A stretch of 64,000 nucleotides of DNA from a bacterium. Its GTDB lineage: Bacteria; Bacteroidota; Bacteroidia; B-17B0; Aurantibacillaceae. The stretch is from NCBI GenBank assembly GCA_029945625.1, contig JAQSCW010000055.1:310001-374000 (forward strand), given 5' to 3'. Below the pieces are notes generated by a model. The model did no database searches and had not been told where the DNA came from. It saw nothing but the letters and a program-made list of their open reading frames with translations. Position 1 is the stretch's first letter. Each line of letters begins with the position of its first letter. This document shows, one piece after another, positions 3,193-60,008 of this stretch. Made by a program: the position numbers and the translations under genes.

Positions 3193-3786
3193 ATGAAGGT
3201 CCTCGAAAACACCTTAAAAAATTTTCCCTATCGCATTGTATTGGGTTCGGCTTCACCGCGACGACAGGAGCTCCTCAAAAGTCTGGGTTTCTCTTTTCAT
3301 TTGCATCCTATCAATGCCGAAGAAAATTGGCCGGAACATCTCGTGGCCGCAGAAATTCCGATTTTCCTGGCGGAACTCAAGGCCAAGGCCTATGCGGCCG
3401 AACTCCATGAAAATGATTTATTGATTACGGCAGATACCATTGTTTGGTGTGAAGGTAGAGTGTTTAACAAACCTGCCACGTTTGAAGAAGGAAAAGCGAT
3501 GCTGGGCACGTTAAGTGGCAAAATGCATGAGGTGTATACGGCAGTGTGCTTAAAAAGTAAAAACAAACAGCTGACATTCTTCGATGTGAGTAAAGTGTTT
3601 TTCAAAACACTGAGTGCCGAAGAAATTGAGTATTATCTTACAAACTATATGCCGTACGATAAAGCGGGTGGCTATGGCGTGCAAGATTGGATCGGTTACA
3701 TTGCCATTGAGCGCATTGAAGGAAGTTTTTACAATGTGATGGGATTACCGGTGAAACCCCTCTATGAACAGTTGATCGCTTTTTAA
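3193..3786 (+). CDS. maf: Maf family nucleoside triphosphate pyrophosphatase
   Basis: 197 residues, full length for the family. The N-terminal signature LGSASPRRQELL (residues 17-28) is the conserved substrate-binding loop of Maf proteins, and ITADTIVW near residue 80 carries the metal-binding aspartate. The C-terminal KAGGYGVQDW segment is also characteristic. Maf/YhdE enzymes hydrolyse dTTP, UTP and modified nucleotides to monophosphates, which removes aberrant nucleotides and slows cell division when overexpressed in some bacteria. It is the last gene of the tight + strand run that starts before the window. No clear hairpin terminator follows; the next gene is convergent. Confidence 0.92.
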   Translation: MKVLENTLKNFPYRIVLGSASPRRQELLKSLGFSFHLHPINAEENWPEHLVAAEIPIFLAELKAKAYAAELHENDLLITADTIVWCEGRVFNKPATFEEGKAMLGTLSGKMHEVYTAVCLKSKNKQLTFFDVSKVFFKTLSAEEIEYYLTNYMPYDKAGGYGVQDWIGYIAIERIEGSFYNVMGLPVKPLYEQLIAF

Positions 3787-3890: not shown

Positions 3891-4733
3891 TTACTCTCTT
3901 TCTTTTTGCTTTTCCTGTTCAATTTCTTTTGCACGAGAAGCCTCGGCTTCCTTAGCTTTCTTTTCTGCTCTTTCTTCAGTCGCTTTTTCCACTCTTTCAG
4001 CGTTCCGCAAATTTTTGTCGCGCAAACCGCTAAAGTATGATTTTGTAGAAATGAGTAATGCCCCACTACTTAAATCGCCATACATGGCGGGGATTCCACC
4101 GGTAAACGCACTTATGTTTTCGATTGCAAGTCCCGGAATCGTACCCGGTTCCATCGTTCTAACGCCGTCTACAAAATAGCCCGTTGCATCCCCCCTGGCT
4201 CCGCGGACATGAATTTCTCCCCCCGTAACTACCACTTCGGAACTCATAAATTCAAGTACATTTTTTACATTGCCGCGGGTATAACTGGCATTCTGTGTTA
4301 AGTCGCTGCCACTGATCGAAATAGTATGAAACATATCAACATCAACACCGGTATTGGTATAATCGATGGGGTCGGCCAATACAACCACTGTGCCAAGTGT
4401 ATTGGCCGATAATTTTGTGTCAACGTACGTTGCCTCACTTGGGCTAACACTGATCTTATTAATTCTTTTTGTGATGTATTCAGGGTGGAGGATCACCATT
4501 TCATAGGTTCCCGGACTCAGTGGTTTGATGCTGTATTTTCCATCTTCATTTGTTTCGGCACCCCCTACCAGTTGGGTGCCTTGCAATATCTTAACCGTAG
4601 CAAAAGGAACCACTTCCAGTTCGGTGTTTTTAATAATACCCCTTATCTCACCGTAGGCTTGAGCATAAGTTTGCGGGACAGAGCAACCAAACAAGAGAAC
4701 CGATAGGAGGAATTTAATGGCATGTGTTTTCAT
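3891..4733 (-). CDS. Barrel-less carboxypeptidase-regulatory-like plus TonB-plug domain protein with charged coiled-coil tail
   Basis: 280 residues. An N-terminal signal (residues 1-26) carries both a Cys at 17 that could be lipidated (LLFGC) and an AQA cleavage site. Residues 27-110 read as a carboxypeptidase-regulatory-like beta-sandwich (ends in SPGTYEMVILHPEYI). Residues 112-232 read as a TonB-receptor plug, with HVRGARGDATGYFVDGVR and GGIPAMYGDLSSGALLIST. These closely resemble the same segments of the full receptor at 56277. After STKS no beta-barrel follows; instead there are about 45 residues of K/E/R/A-rich coiled coil and a stop. No barrel remnants are seen downstream on this strand. 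It diverges from an ECF sigma gene across 119 bp. It could be a decayed receptor or a stand-alone periplasmic signalling/adaptor protein; the open frame and distinct tail favour the second. Confidence 0.75.
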   Translation of the reverse strand: MKTHAIKFLLSVLLFGCSVPQTYAQAYGEIRGIIKNTELEVVPFATVKILQGTQLVGGAETNEDGKYSIKPLSPGTYEMVILHPEYITKRINKISVSPSEATYVDTKLSANTLGTVVVLADPIDYTNTGVDVDMFHTISISGSDLTQNASYTRGNVKNVLEFMSSEVVVTGGEIHVRGARGDATGYFVDGVRTMEPGTIPGLAIENISAFTGGIPAMYGDLSSGALLISTKSYFSGLRDKNLRNAERVEKATEERAEKKAKEAEASRAKEIEQEKQKERE

Positions 4734-4761
4734 AATTCAAAATTTTACATGTAGGAGAATA

Positions 4762-4777
4762 GTCTCAAAATAGAGAC
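4762..4777. promoter_or_regulatory. Short inverted repeat in the plug/sigma divergent promoter region
   Basis: GTCTC at 4762-4766 and GAGAC at 4773-4777 form a 5-bp perfect inverted repeat with a 6-bp spacer. It lies about 30 bp upstream of the plug gene, on the side where its transcript would begin. It could be part of an operator or chance; arms this short carry little weight alone. Confidence 0.3.
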
Positions 4778-4792
4778 GCTTTTGCGCATAAA

Positions 4793-4818
4793 TTCCATAA
4801 ATGATTAATTTTATGGAA
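4793..4818. promoter_or_regulatory. Perfect 9-bp inverted repeat between divergent plug and ECF sigma genes (putative operator)
   Basis: TTCCATAAA (4793-4801) and TTTATGGAA (4810-4818) are exact inverted repeats with an 8-bp spacer. They sit midway between the divergent starts at 4733 and 4853. A dimeric regulator site is the simplest reading; a hairpin in the RNA is the alternative. No terminator-like T-run follows. The position allows one regulator to control both transcripts. Confidence 0.5.
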
Positions 4819-4837
4819 AAACGTCAATTGAGTGTCT

Positions 4838-4845
4838 TATACTTG
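4838..4845 (+). promoter_or_regulatory. Possible Bacteroidota -7 element of the ECF sigma gene
   Basis: TATACTTG matches seven of eight positions of TAnnTTTG. It ends seven bases before the ATG at 4853, so the transcript would have a very short leader. No TTG is present at the usual -33 distance, so the assignment is weak. Confidence 0.3.
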
Positions 4846-4852
4846 AATACTT

Positions 4853-5449
4853 ATGTGGCTCTTCAATAGGAACAAATCAACAAACGATGAAGATCTCGCG
4901 AAGCTCTATTTTACTTCGGGTAACAAGCGCTTTGTGGGGGAACTTTTTGAGAAACATGTTCAAACGGTATTTGGGGTTTGTTTGTTTTATCTCCGAAATA
5001 AAGAAGCGGCTAAGGATGCGGTGATGCAGATCTTTGAGAAACTGCTGTTGGAACTTAAAAAAAATGAAGTTCGAAATTTCCGTGCATGGCTGTCATTTGT
5101 GGTCAGAAATCACTGTTTAAGTATAATCCGGGGAAATAGGAATAAATATTTTTTGCCTGAAGAGTATCTTGACTTTGAAGTGACCGACGCAACTTTAGAA
5201 GAAGAGGAAAAGATTTCGGGGGTAAACGAAGAAACACTGCTGGAGCATTTAAAGGAAGTGCTACCTCTATTAAAAGATACACAGAGAATTTGCATTGAGT
5301 TATTCTACTTAAAAGGGAACAGCTATGAGGACATAAAGAAAAGAACAGGCTATGACCTTAATCAGATAAAAAGTTTTATTCAGAATGGGAAACGAAATTT
5401 GAAGCTAATGATTGTATCAAGAACCAATACCACCAACAATGAAGCCTGA
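4853..5449 (+). CDS. ECF-type RNA polymerase sigma-70 factor
   Basis: 198 residues. Region 2 is visible as ELFEKHVQTVFGVCLFYLRNKEAAKDAVMQIFEKLL and the following RAWLSFVVRNHCLSIIR, with the core-binding and -10-recognition helices of ECF factors. An acidic linker (about residues 100-125) leads to region 4, LLKDTQRICIELFYLKGNSYEDIKKRTGYDLNQIKSFI, a helix-turn-helix for -35 recognition. No sigma-1.1 or region 3 is present. The 3' end overlaps the next gene by 11 bp, so the two are translationally linked, which is usual for sigma/anti-sigma pairs. The divergent plug-domain gene is the likely third component. Its regulon is unknown. Confidence 0.9.
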   Translation: MWLFNRNKSTNDEDLAKLYFTSGNKRFVGELFEKHVQTVFGVCLFYLRNKEAAKDAVMQIFEKLLLELKKNEVRNFRAWLSFVVRNHCLSIIRGNRNKYFLPEEYLDFEVTDATLEEEEKISGVNEETLLEHLKEVLPLLKDTQRICIELFYLKGNSYEDIKKRTGYDLNQIKSFIQNGKRNLKLMIVSRTNTTNNEA

Positions 5450-6407
5450 CAAACACATGGACGATCTGGAATATTTGTCGCAGCTCGGATTTGAGAATGT
5501 GCCCGTGACGGATTCGGATATTAAGATGCTCCGGAAGACAGTGCGGAAGAGGCTATTTTCCGGACATAGGCTTTTATATTCGGGATTATTTGGAGCAGTG
5601 ATGGGCTTACTGGCAGGCTTTTTATTCTTCCACAGCAGCAACAACCCTCCCAATACAATTGTGATGGCCGGAAAAACATCTCTGCCTACGGCGAGGGTGG
5701 ATGCTTCGGGACAAATTCCGACCACCTTGCTTGATTGCGTGACCATTGTGAGAGAAAATTTTAGAATACCGGAAATGAATAAAATTGCCGGGCAGTCCTC
5801 TGATTCATTGGAACCGGGAACAGTGTATCTGGAGCCGCACCCTGGTTTCCGAATTCCTGGTCCTGATTTAAAAGTTGAAAAGTTGAAATTCATCTTGAAT
5901 TCGCCTGTTTTTTATGTGGAAGGGTTGAAGGTGACGAACTATTCGCTTTTGTACTTCCGAAAAGATCATTTCCGTGAAGTGCAGGGAGTGCCTGCAAATA
6001 TGACTAGTCAGGAAATGCGCCGGGAGGGAACTGGCTCGCTTAAAAATGAACCGCATCTATTTTTGCATGAAGAACTTGCAAATGCTCTTTTTTCTTTTAG
6101 GAAAGGGAGGTATCATGAGTGCATCACCTCACTTACAGTAGTAGAAAAATACAACGATGAAGATTTAAACTCCCTATTTTACAAGGGGATGAGTTTCTAT
6201 TATTTAAAAGATTATTTGAAGGCCATTTCTATGCTAGATGCATGCGTTGAAAACAGTAATAATACTTTTCTTCAGGAAGCCAATTTTTATAAGGCCCTGT
6301 CGTTGCGGGCGATTGGTAAAGAGTTGGATGCTCGAAAAATCCTCACTCAAATTGCCGAAGAGGGTGAATTTTATTCGGCAAAAGCTAAGGAGTTACTCAA
6401 GAACTAA
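5439..6407 (+). CDS. Single-pass membrane protein with C-terminal TPR-like repeats; candidate anti-sigma factor
   Basis: 322 residues from ATG 5439, which overlaps the sigma gene. The first 45 residues are hydrophilic and would be cytoplasmic. One transmembrane helix follows (LLYSGLFGAVMGLLAGFLFF, about residues 46-65), then a periplasmic region of some 250 residues. The last 110 residues contain TPR-like helical pairs (ANALFSFRKGRYHECITSL, LFYKGMSFYYLKDYLKAISMLD, EANFYKALSLRAIGKELDARKIL). The topology fits a membrane-anchored sigma regulator that could sense periplasmic partners. The zinc-binding H-x3-C-x2-C motif of ZAS anti-sigma factors is absent. The role is inferred from gene order and topology only. 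A strong terminator follows directly. Confidence 0.75.
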   Translation: MKPDKHMDDLEYLSQLGFENVPVTDSDIKMLRKTVRKRLFSGHRLLYSGLFGAVMGLLAGFLFFHSSNNPPNTIVMAGKTSLPTARVDASGQIPTTLLDCVTIVRENFRIPEMNKIAGQSSDSLEPGTVYLEPHPGFRIPGPDLKVEKLKFILNSPVFYVEGLKVTNYSLLYFRKDHFREVQGVPANMTSQEMRREGTGSLKNEPHLFLHEELANALFSFRKGRYHECITSLTVVEKYNDEDLNSLFYKGMSFYYLKDYLKAISMLDACVENSNNTFLQEANFYKALSLRAIGKELDARKILTQIAEEGEFYSAKAKELLKN

Positions 6408-6416
6408 ATGACAAAA

Positions 6417-6440
6417 GGCGCAATTTCTTGCGCCTATTTT
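6417..6440 (+). terminator. Rho-independent terminator after the sigma/TPR operon
   Basis: GGCGCAA at 6417-6423 pairs perfectly with TTGCGCC at 6428-6434 around a four-base loop, followed by TATTTT. It begins ten bases after the stop of the TPR protein. Confidence 0.85.
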
Positions 6441-6872
6441 GCCTCTTTTTGGGTAACTCTCTTTATTCCTTTTGTTTGCAGCTATAATGTGATGGCTTCC
6501 TAAAGAAACTACAATTAAGTTAAAGTAATTTCATTAATTTGTAAAAAGTCGTTTTGAATTTGTGGGAGTTCGGAATAAATTAGTGGAATGTGCATCATGA
6601 CCAAACAAATGCCGAATGATCACATTAAGTATAAAGGTGGGAGGTGACAGACCTAAATTGTAATAGAAAAAGCGCGAGATGGGTTCTCGCACTCTTCTGT
6701 TTTTCTTGGGCAAACATGAGTATCATTCAATCATCGGTTAATTGGTTGCCCTCTGTAAAGTGGTTATGTAATTATTGCAAATTAAGAACCAAAGCCGCCC
6801 ATTCATTGTTAAACTTGTGGAATAGGGGTCTGAATTTGTAGATTAGCGGTCCGGATTTGTGGAATTCTTACG
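6441..6872. other. Gene-poor stretch with short repeats and one stem-loop; possible decayed mobile-element end
   Basis: I see no convincing gene here. The one frame of note (6644-6841, 65 codons) has low-complexity, cysteine/tryptophan-rich composition unlike a domain. A stem of GCGAGA (6674-6679) and TCTCGC (6685-6690) is followed by T-rich sequence. Variants of GAATTTGTGG occur near 6555, and clustered copies lie at about 6818-6863. Such clustered copies resemble the multiple terminal repeats of IS21-type elements in Bacteroidota, but no transposase fragment could be recognised. The tsaB gene converges from the right. Confidence 0.35.
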
Positions 6873-7568
6873 CTATTTTACCTCGTCTTTGAGTTTTTTT
6901 TTGCCGGCCAGAAAGTCTTTGAGGTAGTAGGGTTCAAAATAAGCTGTGTTTTCGAAATCTTTTCCCCTGAATTTAGCATAAGATAATTTGCCCATGTGCT
7001 TTGCGGAAGGACAAATGTTTGGGATAAAGGAAAATTCGCCCGCGCTTAACAACAGGTCTTTGCTTTTCGGCATCCCATCTCCAAAAAAACAGAGCCCCTT
7101 ATAGTTATAAAATTTTTTAGTGCTCTCTTTGTCCACTATCAAGGCTTCAATTGGTTCAAGGGGACGCAATTCAGAATCGTAGACACAACAATACACTTCC
7201 ATTCTTCGTGCATCGATCATGGGACAGTAGTGGGTTTGCACCCCAAGGGTTTGCTCTACGGCCTTGCACATAAGTTGAAGTGTATCAACGGCGATCAAAG
7301 GAATATTGTGTGCAAAAGCTAGTCCTTTTGCGGCACTTACGCCAATCCTCAAGCCGGTGTAAGAGCCGGGACCCTTGCTTACGGCGATGGCACTCAAGTG
7401 TTGAAGTGGTATGTGCGCTTCTTTTATAAGCGCATCTGCAAAAACATGCAGATTTTCGGCGTGAGTGTATCCCTGATCTAATTCCTTAAAAGAGACTAAT
7501 GTTTCCTCATCAAATAGGGATACCGAACACATGGTGGTGGCCGTTTCAATATTTAAAATATAGGCCAC
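6873..7568 (-). CDS. tsaB: tRNA threonylcarbamoyladenosine biosynthesis protein TsaB
   Basis: 231 residues. The N-terminus (ILNIETATTMCSVSL) is the ASKHA phosphate-binding strand-turn of the TsaB/TsaD family, and KGPGSYTGLRIG at residues 65-76 is the hallmark TsaB motif. The protein lacks the HxxxH metal site that distinguishes TsaD. TsaB is the scaffold partner of TsaD and TsaE in making t6A37 on ANN-decoding tRNAs, and is normally essential. The start is GTG, sharing one base with the TAG stop of the upstream adaptor gene (minus-strand TAGTG), so translation is probably coupled. The C-terminus is lysine-rich, as in other Bacteroidota copies. Confidence 0.93.
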   Translation of the reverse strand: MAYILNIETATTMCSVSLFDEETLVSFKELDQGYTHAENLHVFADALIKEAHIPLQHLSAIAVSKGPGSYTGLRIGVSAAKGLAFAHNIPLIAVDTLQLMCKAVEQTLGVQTHYCPMIDARRMEVYCCVYDSELRPLEPIEALIVDKESTKKFYNYKGLCFFGDGMPKSKDLLLSAGEFSFIPNICPSAKHMGKLSYAKFRGKDFENTAYFEPYYLKDFLAGKKKLKDEVK

Positions 7569-56276: not shown

Positions 56277-59200
56277 ATGAAGAAAATTTATTTAGCAATT
56301 GTTTGGGTAGTTTTTATGAGCTTTTCAGGTTTGGCACAATCTGATAACGGCGCAATAAAAGTTGTTTTGCAGGATAAAGCGACGAAGGAAGCGATACCCT
56401 TTGCGAACGTGGTTGCTTACAGGGACGGGGTTCAGGTGGGTGTTGCCACCACAAACATGGATGGAGAGGCATTTATTAAGCCGCTCTCCCCCGGAAAGTA
56501 CACGGTTAAAGGGGTTTACGTGGGCTACCAAACCGTTGAGGTAAAAGATGTTCAAGTGGGGGAAGGAAAAACAGCGTATGTTACACTGGCCCTCTCAAAC
56601 GGTGAAGGCGTGCGTCTCGATGAGGTGGTGGTGATGACTTATCAGGTGCCGTTGATCGACCCTGATACCAAATCGGGCCAAACAGTTACGCGGGAAGATT
56701 ATCAGAATCTTGCAACGAAAGATATTAATTCAGTTGCCGCAACCACAGCCGGTGTTTACCAGGCGGATGAGGGAAGGGCTCTTAACGTACGTGGTGGTCG
56801 GCCTGAAAATACCACCTATTTTGTGGATGGTGTAAAAGTTTTTGGAACACCTCGACTGCCGCAGCAGTCAATTGAACAATTAAATGTAATCACAGGTGGT
56901 GTTCCGGCAAGTTATGGTGACCTTTCATCAGGTGCCATCTCCATCTCCACGCGCGGGCCCCAGTCCAAATCTTTTGGTGGTATTGAATTAATTTCATCGC
57001 AGCTCACCGATAAATATGGCTACAACTCACTGGGATTCAGTGTTGGCGGACCTCTCTACAAAAAACGCGATTCCACCCGCCGTACCGTGCTAGGCTATTT
57101 TATTTCGGGCCAAGGAAATTATGTGAAGGAACCGTCGCCTTCCTTTGTTCCCATTTATGTATTGAAAGACGAAAAACTCCAGGAAATTAAAGATAAACCC
57201 TTGTTACCTTCTCCTTCGGGATCGGGATTTATCAGATCCTCTGAATTTGTAACGAAGGCCGACATGAACACCCAGGCTGCCCGTCCTAATGCCGTGGCAC
57301 GTCTGCTCTCGGTGAACGGAAAATTGGACTATGCGCCCACTGTGAATACCAACATTACCTTGGGAGGCTTTTATGAGTATGGCGACAACATGAATGCCGG
57401 CGTAGGAAATCAGATTTTTAACTCAGTGAATAACTCCAAAACTTCTGCGCGTTCATGGCGCACAAGCCTCTCAATTACTCAAAAATTTGGCAATGCCACC
57501 ACCGACAAAACAAAAACTCAGTCCGTTCTAAAAAACTCATTTTTCAAATTTCTGGTGAGTTACGAAAATGTTTTAAATAAAACGGAAGATGCCCGACACA
57601 AAGACAATTACTTTAATTACGGGTACATCGGAAAATTTGACAGAAAATTCCTCGATCAAAACTGGGCCTACAACTATGATTTTTCTCCAAATTTCGTACT
57701 CACCACTCCTACCGGTACTCAGAGTATTAACTCCTATACTTACACCGGCCGTAGAGAATTACCATTGTCCTTTACGCCAAGCAATATCAATCCCGATGCG
57801 CCCATCTATACCAGTTACCTGATCGCCAATTCTAACCCAAATTCCATTTATATGGGGTACCTCCAGGGTAATAACGGTCTGGTAAATGGCGATACACCTG
57901 AAAGTATATACAACCTCTTTAATAACTTTGGTGAATACCCAACTACTGCATTCAAACAAATCAGAGAACAGTTTAGAATTGCAACGAGCTTTAATACCGA
58001 TATAAAAGACCATGCTTTATCAATTGGATTAGAGTTTGATCAACGCGTGAACAGTTATTACAATGTGAATGGTGCCGGACTATGGACCCGCATCAGACCC
58101 GGTACCGGAATTGTAGATGCACACACACGTTCCCTCGACTTGTCTAACCCAATTCTCAACACTGAATTGTCCGGCCTTGTTCCCTACTATTATTTTAATT
58201 ACGCGTACAACCAAAGTAAACAAACACAATTTTCAGAACAATTGCTCGACAAATTAGGATTGCCAAGGAATTATACGGGATACGTAAATACCGACGCTCT
58301 CGATCCCTCTATGTTGAGCATCCAAATGTTTAGCGCCGAAGACCTGCTTGGGCAGCAACGAAGCACCAATTTGGTAGATTACAGTGGTTTCACCCACGAT
58401 GGTATTAGAGCGAATAAGAAAACCAGCATGTCTGATTTCCTAAACCAAAAAGATGAAAACGGCCGCAATTTATTTCCGAATGGTTCGTTCCGACCAATCT
58501 ATTCTGCGGCATACATCATGGATAAGTTCGACTTTAAGGATATTAAGTTCCTCGTTGGATTACGCGTAGATCGTTACGATGCCAATCAACAAGTGCTGAA
58601 AGATAAGTACTCACTTCATGAACTTGCCAAGGTGAGCGATCTGGGGTCTATGGAAAATCTTCCTGCAGGATTTGCAGATAATATCCCATCGAGTATTTCC
58701 AAAGATGCCGCAGTTTACGTGGCACAAAACCCTACGGGAGGAAAATCCCCTGTGTCAATCACCGGTTTTAGAGAGGGAGACAAATGGTTTAATGCCGAAG
58801 GAATTGAGATCTCTGACCCACAGCTAATTGTTGCCAGCGATAGCCGCCCCGTTCCACTTTTTAAAGATGTTTCGGACTATGACAAAAAACTTTCTGCCAG
58901 CGCATTCACCAATTACCAGGCAGTGATTATCCCTCAACCTCGTTTAGGATTTTCGTTTCCAATATCCGACGTTGCCAACTTCTTCGCACACTACGACGTG
59001 TTGGTACAACGTCCTTCTGCCAATCAGTTGAGTCCTCTCGATTATTACTACCTTGATGCAGCCTCAAATGCCCCTACTATTACCAATCCAAATTTGAAAC
59101 CACAACGTGTAGTGGATTATGAATTGGGTTTCCAGCAAGTGTTGAATGAGCGCAAAAACGCTTCACTCACTATCACCTCCTTCTACAAGGAATTTCGCAA

Positions 59201-60008
59201 CCAAATTAATCAACGTATGGTTGTGGGAGCTTATCCTAAAAACTACATCATGTATGACAATATCGACTTTTCAACGGTAAAAGGATTGTCTGCATCTTTC
59301 GACTTTAGAAGAACCGGCGGCTCAAGGATCAATCTAAACTATACTCTTCAATTTGCCGAGGGCTCAGGTTCAAATATCAACTCCGGAGCTAACTTGGCCA
59401 GTTCGGGTCAACCAAATCTTCGTGTATTGCAACCGCTCGATTTCGATCAGCGCCACAGCTTTGTGCTCACTTACGACTACCGTTTTGGAAGTAAAAAAGA
59501 TTACAAAGGCCCAAGTTTCAAAACAAAGAAGGACAAAACAGTTCACATCTTCGAAGACATGGGATTCAACATGACCTTCTTACTGGGCTCGGGAACTCCT
59601 TATACCCGCTGGGCTTCAGCAACTCCAATTGGCGGTGGTGGCCGTTCAAGTATCGTAGGGCAGATCAATGGATCGTCTAAGCCTTGGAACTTCAGAACCA
59701 ATTTGAGGATCGACAAGAACATTGCTTTGGAATGGGGCCGTGAAGATGGCGATAACAAAAAAACAGCTAATCTAAACGTGTACTTGCAAGTGCTAAACGT
59801 GTTCAATACCAGAAACGTAATGAACGTATACAATTACACCGGTGTTCCTGACGATGACGGATACCTCACTTCCACCCAAGCAAAAACACAATTGGCAACA
59901 ACAAATAGCGCGGCAGCGTATGCCGATCAGTATGCCATTCGTGTAAATGCCGGATCGAATTACAGTTTACCACGTCAGATTCGTATTGGCTTATTATTTG
60001 AATTTTAA
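56277..60008 (+). CDS. TonB-dependent outer-membrane receptor with carboxypeptidase-regulatory-like N-domain
   Basis: 1243 residues. A signal peptide (KKIYLAIVWVVFMSFSGLAQ) is followed by a carboxypeptidase-regulatory-like domain (about 24-115; SPGKYTVKGVYVGYQTVEVKDV). The plug (about 130-245) includes LNVRGGRPENTTYFVDGVKVFG and GGVPASYGDLSSGAISIST. The remaining 1000 residues form the beta-barrel, with many aromatic/polar alternations, ending RQIRIGLLFEF. There is no SusD-like partner downstream; instead a large secreted protein follows four bases after the stop. The receptor probably imports a large or scarce substrate, or works with that protein. The substrate is unknown. Confidence 0.93.
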   Translation: MKKIYLAIVWVVFMSFSGLAQSDNGAIKVVLQDKATKEAIPFANVVAYRDGVQVGVATTNMDGEAFIKPLSPGKYTVKGVYVGYQTVEVKDVQVGEGKTAYVTLALSNGEGVRLDEVVVMTYQVPLIDPDTKSGQTVTREDYQNLATKDINSVAATTAGVYQADEGRALNVRGGRPENTTYFVDGVKVFGTPRLPQQSIEQLNVITGGVPASYGDLSSGAISISTRGPQSKSFGGIELISSQLTDKYGYNSLGFSVGGPLYKKRDSTRRTVLGYFISGQGNYVKEPSPSFVPIYVLKDEKLQEIKDKPLLPSPSGSGFIRSSEFVTKADMNTQAARPNAVARLLSVNGKLDYAPTVNTNITLGGFYEYGDNMNAGVGNQIFNSVNNSKTSARSWRTSLSITQKFGNATTDKTKTQSVLKNSFFKFLVSYENVLNKTEDARHKDNYFNYGYIGKFDRKFLDQNWAYNYDFSPNFVLTTPTGTQSINSYTYTGRRELPLSFTPSNINPDAPIYTSYLIANSNPNSIYMGYLQGNNGLVNGDTPESIYNLFNNFGEYPTTAFKQIREQFRIATSFNTDIKDHALSIGLEFDQRVNSYYNVNGAGLWTRIRPGTGIVDAHTRSLDLSNPILNTELSGLVPYYYFNYAYNQSKQTQFSEQLLDKLGLPRNYTGYVNTDALDPSMLSIQMFSAEDLLGQQRSTNLVDYSGFTHDGIRANKKTSMSDFLNQKDENGRNLFPNGSFRPIYSAAYIMDKFDFKDIKFLVGLRVDRYDANQQVLKDKYSLHELAKVSDLGSMENLPAGFADNIPSSISKDAAVYVAQNPTGGKSPVSITGFREGDKWFNAEGIEISDPQLIVASDSRPVPLFKDVSDYDKKLSASAFTNYQAVIIPQPRLGFSFPISDVANFFAHYDVLVQRPSANQLSPLDYYYLDAASNAPTITNPNLKPQRVVDYELGFQQVLNERKNASLTITSFYKEFRNQINQRMVVGAYPKNYIMYDNIDFSTVKGLSASFDFRRTGGSRINLNYTLQFAEGSGSNINSGANLASSGQPNLRVLQPLDFDQRHSFVLTYDYRFGSKKDYKGPSFKTKKDKTVHIFEDMGFNMTFLLGSGTPYTRWASATPIGGGGRSSIVGQINGSSKPWNFRTNLRIDKNIALEWGREDGDNKKTANLNVYLQVLNVFNTRNVMNVYNYTGVPDDDGYLTSTQAKTQLATTNSAAAYADQYAIRVNAGSNYSLPRQIRIGLLFEF

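Follow-up and report, generated by a model that had tools for sequence, protein, structure and literature searches.

A barrel-less TonB plug protein encoded beside an ECF sigma factor and a TPR anti-sigma factor: a candidate envelope-signalling unit in Bacteroidota

Gene Organization of the Locus

A stretch of 64,000 nucleotides from a member of the Aurantibacillaceae (assembly GCA_029945625.1, contig JAQSCW010000055.1, positions 310,001 to 374,000), here called the window, carries three genes at positions 3891-6407. One, on the reverse strand, encodes an exported protein with a TonB plug domain and no barrel; divergent from it, on the forward strand, lie the genes of an extracytoplasmic function (ECF) sigma factor and of a membrane-anchored tetratricopeptide repeat (TPR) protein. 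This three-gene anatomy, proposed in a preliminary description of the locus, is borne out by gene calls, Pfam and predicted structures, and the coordinates given there hold with small corrections.

The plug protein (P0001, 3891..4733, reverse strand, 280 aa) begins with a signal peptide recognized by eye (residues 1-25, 4659..4733, reverse), the last residue of which, Q25, is invariant in alignment A1. A carboxypeptidase-regulatory-like (transthyretin-like) domain (CTD) follows (residues 30-108, 4410..4646, reverse), assigned through PF13620 and a structure match, and then a TonB plug domain homologous to those of receptors (approximately residues 133-232, 4038..4337, reverse; PF07715 below cut-off). 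A charged C-terminal helix (residues 233-279, 3897..4037, reverse) occupies the position where a barrel would start. The frame stops at 3891, beyond which lies maf (3193..3786, forward).

The sigma factor (P0002, 4853..5449, forward, 198 aa) and the TPR protein (P0003, 5439..6407, forward, 322 aa) are encoded by genes overlapping by 11 nt when ATG 5439 is taken as the start of the latter, which is preferred over TTG 5412. The TPR protein has a short N-terminus (residues 1-43, 5439..5567, forward), taken as cytoplasmic and as the remnant of a zinc anti-sigma (ZAS) domain, a membrane helix placed by structure prediction (residues 44-68, 5568..5642, forward) and a TPR head (residues 209-321, 6063..6401, forward), taken as periplasmic. 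Two ECF-type promoter sites, both TATGGAA-N15-GTCT, lie in the spacer, one for the plug gene (4774..4799, reverse) and one for the sigma-TPR operon (4812..4837, forward). A terminator-like stem-loop of 8 pairs, 5 of them G-C, stands at 6416..6435 and is listed on both strands; the "strong terminator" of the preliminary description is present at this place, with moderate strength. The 64-kb window holds 5 such sites, against 3.1 in shuffles.

Conservation of the Three Genes

Relatives were searched at two levels, in a set of 60 for conservation in the genus and in 395 genomes across the class, the latter with profiles A2 for the TPR protein and A1 for the plug protein (genomes, loci and families bear the prefixes G, L and f). 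Plug counts at both levels, as well as TPR and effector counts in the class, are counts among the matches listed. The thresholds of 80 bits for the TPR protein and 1e-30 for the effector introduced below were set after the lists were seen, and named loci that are the same contigs as G genomes (e.g., L129/G003, L195/L241) are counted once.

Among the 60 relatives, the standalone plug and the TPR protein are distributed over almost identical sets of genomes, in neighbouring positions. All three genes were read at 19 genus loci, L041-L059, and in every one the plug gene diverges from the sigma-TPR pair. In 10 of the 19 the trio has maf and tsaB at its flanks, as in the window; the trios of L051 and L054-L059 sit in other neighbourhoods, so the linkage is not mere synteny. 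Across the class, 62 of the 395 genomes have a best TPR hit of at least 80 bits, and with all of these loci read, a sigma gene adjoins the TPR gene in 61 and a standalone plug lies within about 5 kb in 46. The 16 genomes lacking an adjacent plug are eight of f38 (G073, G206, G112, G262, G176, G145, G309, and G330), five of f20 (G340, G415, G224, G250, and G398), G117, G344 with a vWA-YfbK gene in the plug's place, and G205, in which no sigma gene stands beside the TPR gene. Among the matches listed, all of the eight f38 genomes but G330, and likewise G117, have a short-frame plug elsewhere in the genome. The arrangement is divergent in f1, f19, f21, and f44, and also in f23, there with a vWA-YfbK gene between; in f5, f9, f24, f25, f34, f42, f46, f52, and f55, plug, sigma, and TPR genes run in one direction. 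Co-occurrence of the three genes in relatives, the check suggested in the preliminary description, was thus found in the form of adjacent trios in many Bacteroidota genomes. Because the same three genes are adjacent so often, the trio is real beyond chance and, as judged by this conservation, the genes belong together as a unit.

The Plug Protein and the Age of the Barrel-Less Form

The known setting of a TonB plug domain is the inside of a barrel. Pfam finds the CTD of the plug protein readily (PF13620, E=1e-13; PF13715, E=8e-8) and its plug domain less so (PF07715, E=9e-4, 20.1 bits, under the Pfam cut-off of 23.9). The assignment of the plug domain is nevertheless safe, since the profile of the standalone-plug family recovers the CTD-plug regions of complete receptors at E values of about 1e-44 to 1e-52. 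Among the matches listed, the nearest barrel-bearing homologues are the family of about 1240 aa to which a receptor of the window belongs (56277..60008, forward, 1243 aa), a complete CTD-plug-barrel TonB receptor with PF07715 at 2e-9 and a PF00593 barrel. Frames of this build, of about 1215-1310 aa, recur among the matches listed in the class search with the plug profile.

The predicted CTD matches the transthyretin-like domain 5aq0_B (Z 14.2, root mean square deviation [rmsd] 1.2, 81 residues) and the SusC NTE domain 9hfj (Z 12.2, rmsd 2.3, 80 residues). The plug half of the model has no clear structural match of its own, the listed matches being to the CTD or to the whole chain with large rmsd, which does not show the fold to be new. 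Against the PDB, the family profile gives weak matches to the plugs of the colicin I receptor and YncD/PqqU (E values of 0.02 to 0.05). The Plug protein of type IX secretion binds the periplasmic face of SprA; its chain was not listed at E<=0.1 in the profile search of PDB sequences, a result by which a relation is not excluded. The C-terminal helix is predicted with a local confidence score (pLDDT) of 68 in its first block and 82-89 thereafter, and contains a KEIE motif common to many close relatives and absent from more distant alignment rows.

A tree of 70 chosen CTD-plug regions comprises 55 standalone plugs, including that of the window, 14 receptor plugs, and 1 fusion (L068). A branch with support of 96/90, recovered in 97% of 200 bootstrap trees, separates all 55 standalone plugs from the 14 receptor plugs; the root is a midpoint only, and the long branches of L158, the 812-aa protein of L230, and L064 are unsure. 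The L068 fusion groups with the receptor plugs. In the class loci read, the standalone frames are closed and about 228-370 aa long. Because standalone plugs separate from receptor plugs, the barrel-less plug is, on the evidence of this tree, an old family and not a decayed receptor. A recent truncation or pseudogene was rejected in view of the closed frames and the old group, and the picture of a receptor reduced to its periplasmic parts, which suggests truncation, is not supported as worded. The barrel-less state itself is: orthologous plugs that were read are barrel-less too, and no complete barrel was met among them.

These results bear on another notion, a cell-surface-signalling system of the canonical type whose receptor has been truncated or has decayed; in its favour, the locus combines an ECF sigma factor with a membrane anti-sigma factor and a protein derived from a TonB receptor. 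The Pfam hits of P0001 at E<=1 consist of CTD-like domains and Plug only, with no STN signalling domain, and those of P0003 at E<=1 of TPR-type and unrelated weak hits only, with no FecR domain. With both domains lacking and the barrel-less form being an old group, this explanation is highly improbable, and the cell-surface-signalling mechanism of the preliminary description is an analogy.

A split receptor, in which the plug would act in trans with a separate barrel, is also improbable, if less extremely so. One f4 genome (L275) fits it, in that a receptor of 1210 aa from the nearest family with a barrel follows a standalone plug at a distance of about 900 bp, with one gene between. In the window genome, each of the 14 PF00593 barrels shares its frame with a plug (barrels invisible to PF00593 were not searched for), and the candidate of an orphan barrel there was rejected on this ground. 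The genus loci outside the maf/tsaB neighbourhood have no further gene that stands beside all trios; one recurs in three. The standalone plug is the sole frame under 600 aa among the 23 PF07715 hits of the window genome.

L230 encodes a second plug-bearing protein of 812 aa (4994-7432, forward), divergent from a complete plug-sigma-TPR operon. L064 shares several neighbour genes on both flanks with L061 and retains the standalone plug without the sigma and TPR genes.

The Sigma Factor and the TPR Anti-Sigma Factor

P0002 shows the two regions that mark an ECF sigma factor, region 2 (Sigma70_r2, PF04542, 35 bits, over the cut-off) and region 4 (Sigma70_r4_2, PF08281, 20.6 bits, under the cut-off), and reaches 55.5 bits with TIGR02937 (sigma70-ECF; cut-off, 42.9). 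The model of the TPR protein shows a membrane helix at residues 44-68, a tether of mostly low confidence, and confident TPR helices at residues 209-321. The head has pLDDT values of 85-98 from residue 211, and its Foldseek matches are TPR domains, such as that of YbgF (2xev).

The suggestion that the TPR protein is an anti-sigma factor gains support from homologues. Loci L209-L268 encode 60 TPR proteins, and in 28 of them the first 90 residues contain HxxxCxxC (e.g., HISTCELC and HLVDCELC), the zinc anti-sigma motif. Among the proteins tried, zf-HC2 (PF13490) matches five (L155, L195, L158, L062, and L257) at 0.0001 to 0.003. The motif is absent from P0003 and from the aligned rows of the window's genus, whose TPR proteins align only from about the CxxC motif of L061/L062 onwards. 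By homology the TPR protein is an anti-sigma factor, which would bind the sigma factor encoded beside it.

A Shared Promoter

The spacer between plug and sigma genes was compared in 26 divergent loci (19 of the genus and 7 named records). It carries two back-to-back ECF-type sites of about TTTATGGAA-N14-CGTCTTA, similar in form to the GGAA/GTC promoters of ECF sigma factors. The core TGGAA-N15-GTCT is present on the sigma side in 25 and on the plug side in 22 of the 26 spacers, compared to 5 and 7 for the best pair in 20 shuffles that preserve base counts only. The sigma-side site of the window has a T before GTCT, where most relatives have a C. A strict form of the site (ATGGAA-N13..17-GTC[TA]) precedes the plug or sigma gene in 8 of 10 f21 loci and also in L209 (f1) and L238 (f42). 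In f38 it lies upstream of the sigma gene in five of five loci and before none of three unlinked plugs. Looser forms are visible by eye at some loci without the strict site.

A scan of the genus for TATGGAA-N14-CGTCT gives 58 sites in 40 genomes (reversed control, 20). Module status was established for 38 genus genomes, G010 and G025 showing only a piece of the module at a contig end; the site is present in 23 of 23 genomes with the module and in 1 of 15 without it, the latter including incomplete ones (60 to 100%). The sigma factor of the module would be the one that reads this promoter, because it is the sole regulator in the unit and because presence or absence of the site follows that of the module in the genus.

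The module's own sites make up 31 of the 58, and 27 lie outside the module. Ten of these 27 precede other genes or none (two each in G030, G021, and G008 and one each in G001, G018, G025, and G010) and may all be due to chance, since the control gives 20 hits in 40 genomes. One of the G030 sites (L298) and the G010 site (L309) precede similar proteins of 282-284 aa with a CTD-like stretch recognizable by eye. A further site, G000:C55:383589 in the window genome, is taken as chance; a long repetitive frame follows it.

The Exported CTD Effector

The other 17 outside sites lead to one gene family, 16 directly and one (in G014) via a 186-aa gene. Its members, here called the effector, have 434-447 aa in the genus; a signal peptide recognized by eye is followed by a CTD (PF13715) and by a second part for which Pfam gives no match. 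The gene is unlinked to the module there. Matches of the effector profile in the PDB are confined to N-terminal CTD/NTE stretches, and the second half looks propeller-like, to go by repeats seen by eye.

Profile A6, built from the 16 effectors lying directly behind the exact site, finds the effector in 22 of 23 module genomes and in none of the 15 module-less ones. The match in G028 is a fragment at a contig end. Among genomes whose module status was not determined, G423 has the effector in two pieces and G421 has no match. The exact site lies within 90 nt of 16 of the 21 full-length effectors with a readable start, by construction. For the five effectors found by the profile only, a site with one change is present in L358, L360, and L367 and one with two changes in L365; the fifth, L364 (G014), follows the 186-aa gene, and it is that gene which the exact site precedes.

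In the class, effector hits below 1e-30 occur, among the matches listed, in 67 of the 395 genomes, comprising 53 of the 62 TPR genomes and 14 of the 333 others, genomes that are not independent of one another. The 14 consist of seven with weaker TPR hits (G055, G275, G299, G097, G336, G389, and G156) and seven of f3. Counted by family, 13 have both proteins, 5 the TPR protein only, 1 (f3) the effector only, and 59 neither. The TPR genomes without the effector are G000, the window's own, and G077, G081, G176, G179, G205, G254, G342, and G344. In L226 and L263 (f5) and L247 (f24), plug, sigma, TPR, and effector genes are consecutive on one strand with the effector as the fourth gene, and in L226 and L263 the TPR and effector frames overlap. 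A GGAA-N13..17-GTC site precedes 10 of the 25 class effectors with upstream DNA read, namely, 9 of 9 in f21 and that of G408 in f1; the best f21 frames match only the second part, the CTD not being covered.

The shared promoter suggests that in most close relatives the module also switches on a further exported protein. The preliminary description had the three genes as a closed unit, which is usually not the case, because the effector shares the promoter or joins the operon; nearly all genus genomes with the module carry the same promoter before an unlinked effector gene, and the window genome is one without the effector.

Proposed Mechanism and Alternatives

The gene set, its conservation, the promoter sharing in f1 and f21, and the co-occurrence with the effector can be read from the sequence. 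They are best explained by an autoregulated trans-envelope sigma/anti-sigma switch with the exported barrel-less CTD-plug protein as its periplasmic partner, a reading held to be moderately probable. Topology, plug-TPR contact, sign of the plug's effect, and signal would then be as follows. The short N-terminus of the TPR protein would hold the ECF sigma factor at the inner membrane, with the membrane helix and the long disordered tether putting the TPR head in the periplasm. The plug protein would bind this head and stabilize the anti-sigma factor. An envelope condition may draw the plug off, to TonB, an outer-membrane barrel, or another client, whereupon the anti-sigma factor would be inactivated. 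From the shared promoter, the freed sigma factor would transcribe the sigma-TPR operon and the plug gene and, in almost every genus relative with the module, the effector gene; the fresh plug made along with the effector would reset the switch.

The freed signalling domain of FoxA protects the anti-sigma factor FoxR from proteolysis (PMC11637429), and fecA induction is inhibited when free signalling domain is in surplus (PMC9249621). These two cases favour a protective role of the plug, as does the place of the plug gene behind the promoter, which would give the reset.

Several observations weigh against such a switch. The eight f38 and five f20 genomes retain sigma and TPR genes without an adjacent plug, so the switch can work without a linked one. 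The strict site is found before the plug or sigma gene in none of 13 loci of f19, f44, f34, f5, f24, f9, and f52, and it is missing before 15 of the 25 class effectors; the sharing of the promoter is therefore shown only for f1 and f21 and, as far as the sigma gene goes, for f38. Since the 26 spacers come from related loci, they owe some of their similarity to common ancestry; the sharp spacing of the sites on both strands is not explained by it. A looser pattern gives 8 sites in the window genome, compared to 11 in the reversed control, for which reason a wider regulon there was dropped, and the profile search finds no effector in this genome, the sole exception among the module genomes of the genus. 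The predicted structure of the plug part is only moderately confident, and the binding of plug to TPR head is one that we infer.

The same data allow another arrangement, in which the plug is output and not sensor, the sigma-TPR pair responds to a different cue, and plug and effector belong to one periplasmic complex under common regulation. Both genes stand behind a sigma-type promoter in the genus, and the five f20 genomes combine sigma, TPR protein, and effector without an adjacent plug. In f3 (L269-L274), the plug gene is followed in six of six fetched loci by a gene for a TPR protein of 617-639 aa with a signal peptide (by eye), there is no sigma hit in the stretch, and all six genomes have the effector; no TPR anti-sigma factor is among the matches listed for f3 genomes at 1e-6, where no sigma search was made. 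The gene behind the f3 plugs had been considered as a vWA-YfbK gene, which was rejected. As a neighbour of sigma and TPR genes, however, the plug is far commoner than the effector (46 of 62 genomes versus three loci seen). A partner gene as target is moreover usual in cell-surface signalling, the receptor gene being among the response genes (PMC11637429). The plug as mere output is accordingly regarded as rather unlikely, and the switch with the plug as periplasmic partner is preferred.

Comparison with Known Systems

The unit is ECF sigma/anti-sigma envelope signalling in kind, in a variant form. Like FecI/FecR/FecA and FoxI/FoxR/FoxA, it pairs an ECF sigma factor with an inner-membrane anti-sigma factor that has a periplasmic C-terminus, and it has a partner derived from a TonB-dependent receptor, the gene of which is apparently under the sigma factor. 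In contrast to those systems, it has no barrel, the 280-aa frame and its orthologues ending after plug and helix; it has a TPR head, and its further target is an exported CTD protein. The receptors of about 1240 aa differ in being complete and in falling on the other side of the plug tree.

The Dma anti-sigma factors (PMC13088901) show a comparable plan of an N-terminal sigma-binding part, one membrane helix, a long disordered tether, and a C-terminal head. In the TPR protein, helix and low-confidence tether are predicted, and sigma binding would follow from homology. The Dma head is a β-barrel instead of a TPR domain, and the module has a separate exported plug partner; the cognate sigma factor of Dma is ECF21. 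The unit fails the defining features of both FecA/FecR signalling and Dma, yet it may work like either.

No description of the module was found in the open-access literature searched; papers on ECF-group classification may hold the sigma family. The locus presents an old plug family that lives without a barrel and is linked, in many families of the class, with an ECF sigma switch. With promoter and effector found, the pathway can be tested without knowing the signal, and the unit offers a second architecture, beside Dma, for how Bacteroidota may relay outer-envelope information to a sigma factor.

Sister Modules and Other Partners

Of the 80 best named loci of the sigma family, 16 have a vWA-YfbK_C protein as the divergent neighbour of the sigma gene (L149, L155, L161, L165, L167, L172, L176, L184, L187, L191, L195, L197, L199, L201, L203, and L207). 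These sister modules have the same sigma family by profile, in part a zinc-type anti-sigma factor, and a divergent exported CTD protein; they differ in that this partner is CTD-vWA-YfbK_C. The CTD is confirmed by Pfam in those tried (L155, L195, and L201). The anti-sigma position gives a match to a small TonB_C profile in 12 of the 16 loci, with Pfam TonB_C confirmed in L155 (E=1e-18); the TonB_C profile (2 sequences) and the vWA-YfbK profile (4 sequences) were built from loci of the present analysis. The sister modules are found in Emticicia, Perlabentimonas, Hymenobacter, Sphingobacterium, Rufibacter, Dyadobacter, Pontibacter, Pedobacter, a Bacteroides, and others, and no description of them was found in the open-access literature searched. 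A vWA-YfbK protein in the window genome was rejected, there being no PF12034 hit.

Sigma factor, ZAS-TPR protein, vWA-YfbK protein, and standalone plug occur together in L195 (= L241). In L068 (5549-7834, reverse), CTD, plug, vWA, and YfbK_C are joined in a single 761-aa frame, with genes for TPR and CTD proteins nearby; a 190-aa neighbour considered as a sigma factor proved to be another CTD protein. At L158 (225-4936, forward), sigma and ZAS-TPR genes come directly after the gene of an 807-aa CTD-plug protein that is barrel-like by eye and has no Pfam barrel hit, possibly a barrel-bearing version of the module. Because of these arrangements and those of the vWA-YfbK and f3 partners, the CTD-tagged exported proteins look like interchangeable partners of one switch.

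A bolder extension sees the plug as a free "cork" that serves as periplasmic messenger, docking on the TPR head, reporting the state of TonB or an outer-membrane barrel, and controlling the CTD effector. Together with the vWA-YfbK modules, the unit would then be one branch of a large undescribed Bacteroidota family of envelope-sensing sigma switches using interchangeable CTD-tagged exported sensors. This extension is tentative, somewhat more doubtful than not. In the vWA-YfbK locus L201 of Bacteroides reticulotermitis (5564-6604, forward), an anti-sigma-like protein carries in its later part a CTD, followed by a TonB-box-like LSEVVVTG recognized by eye.

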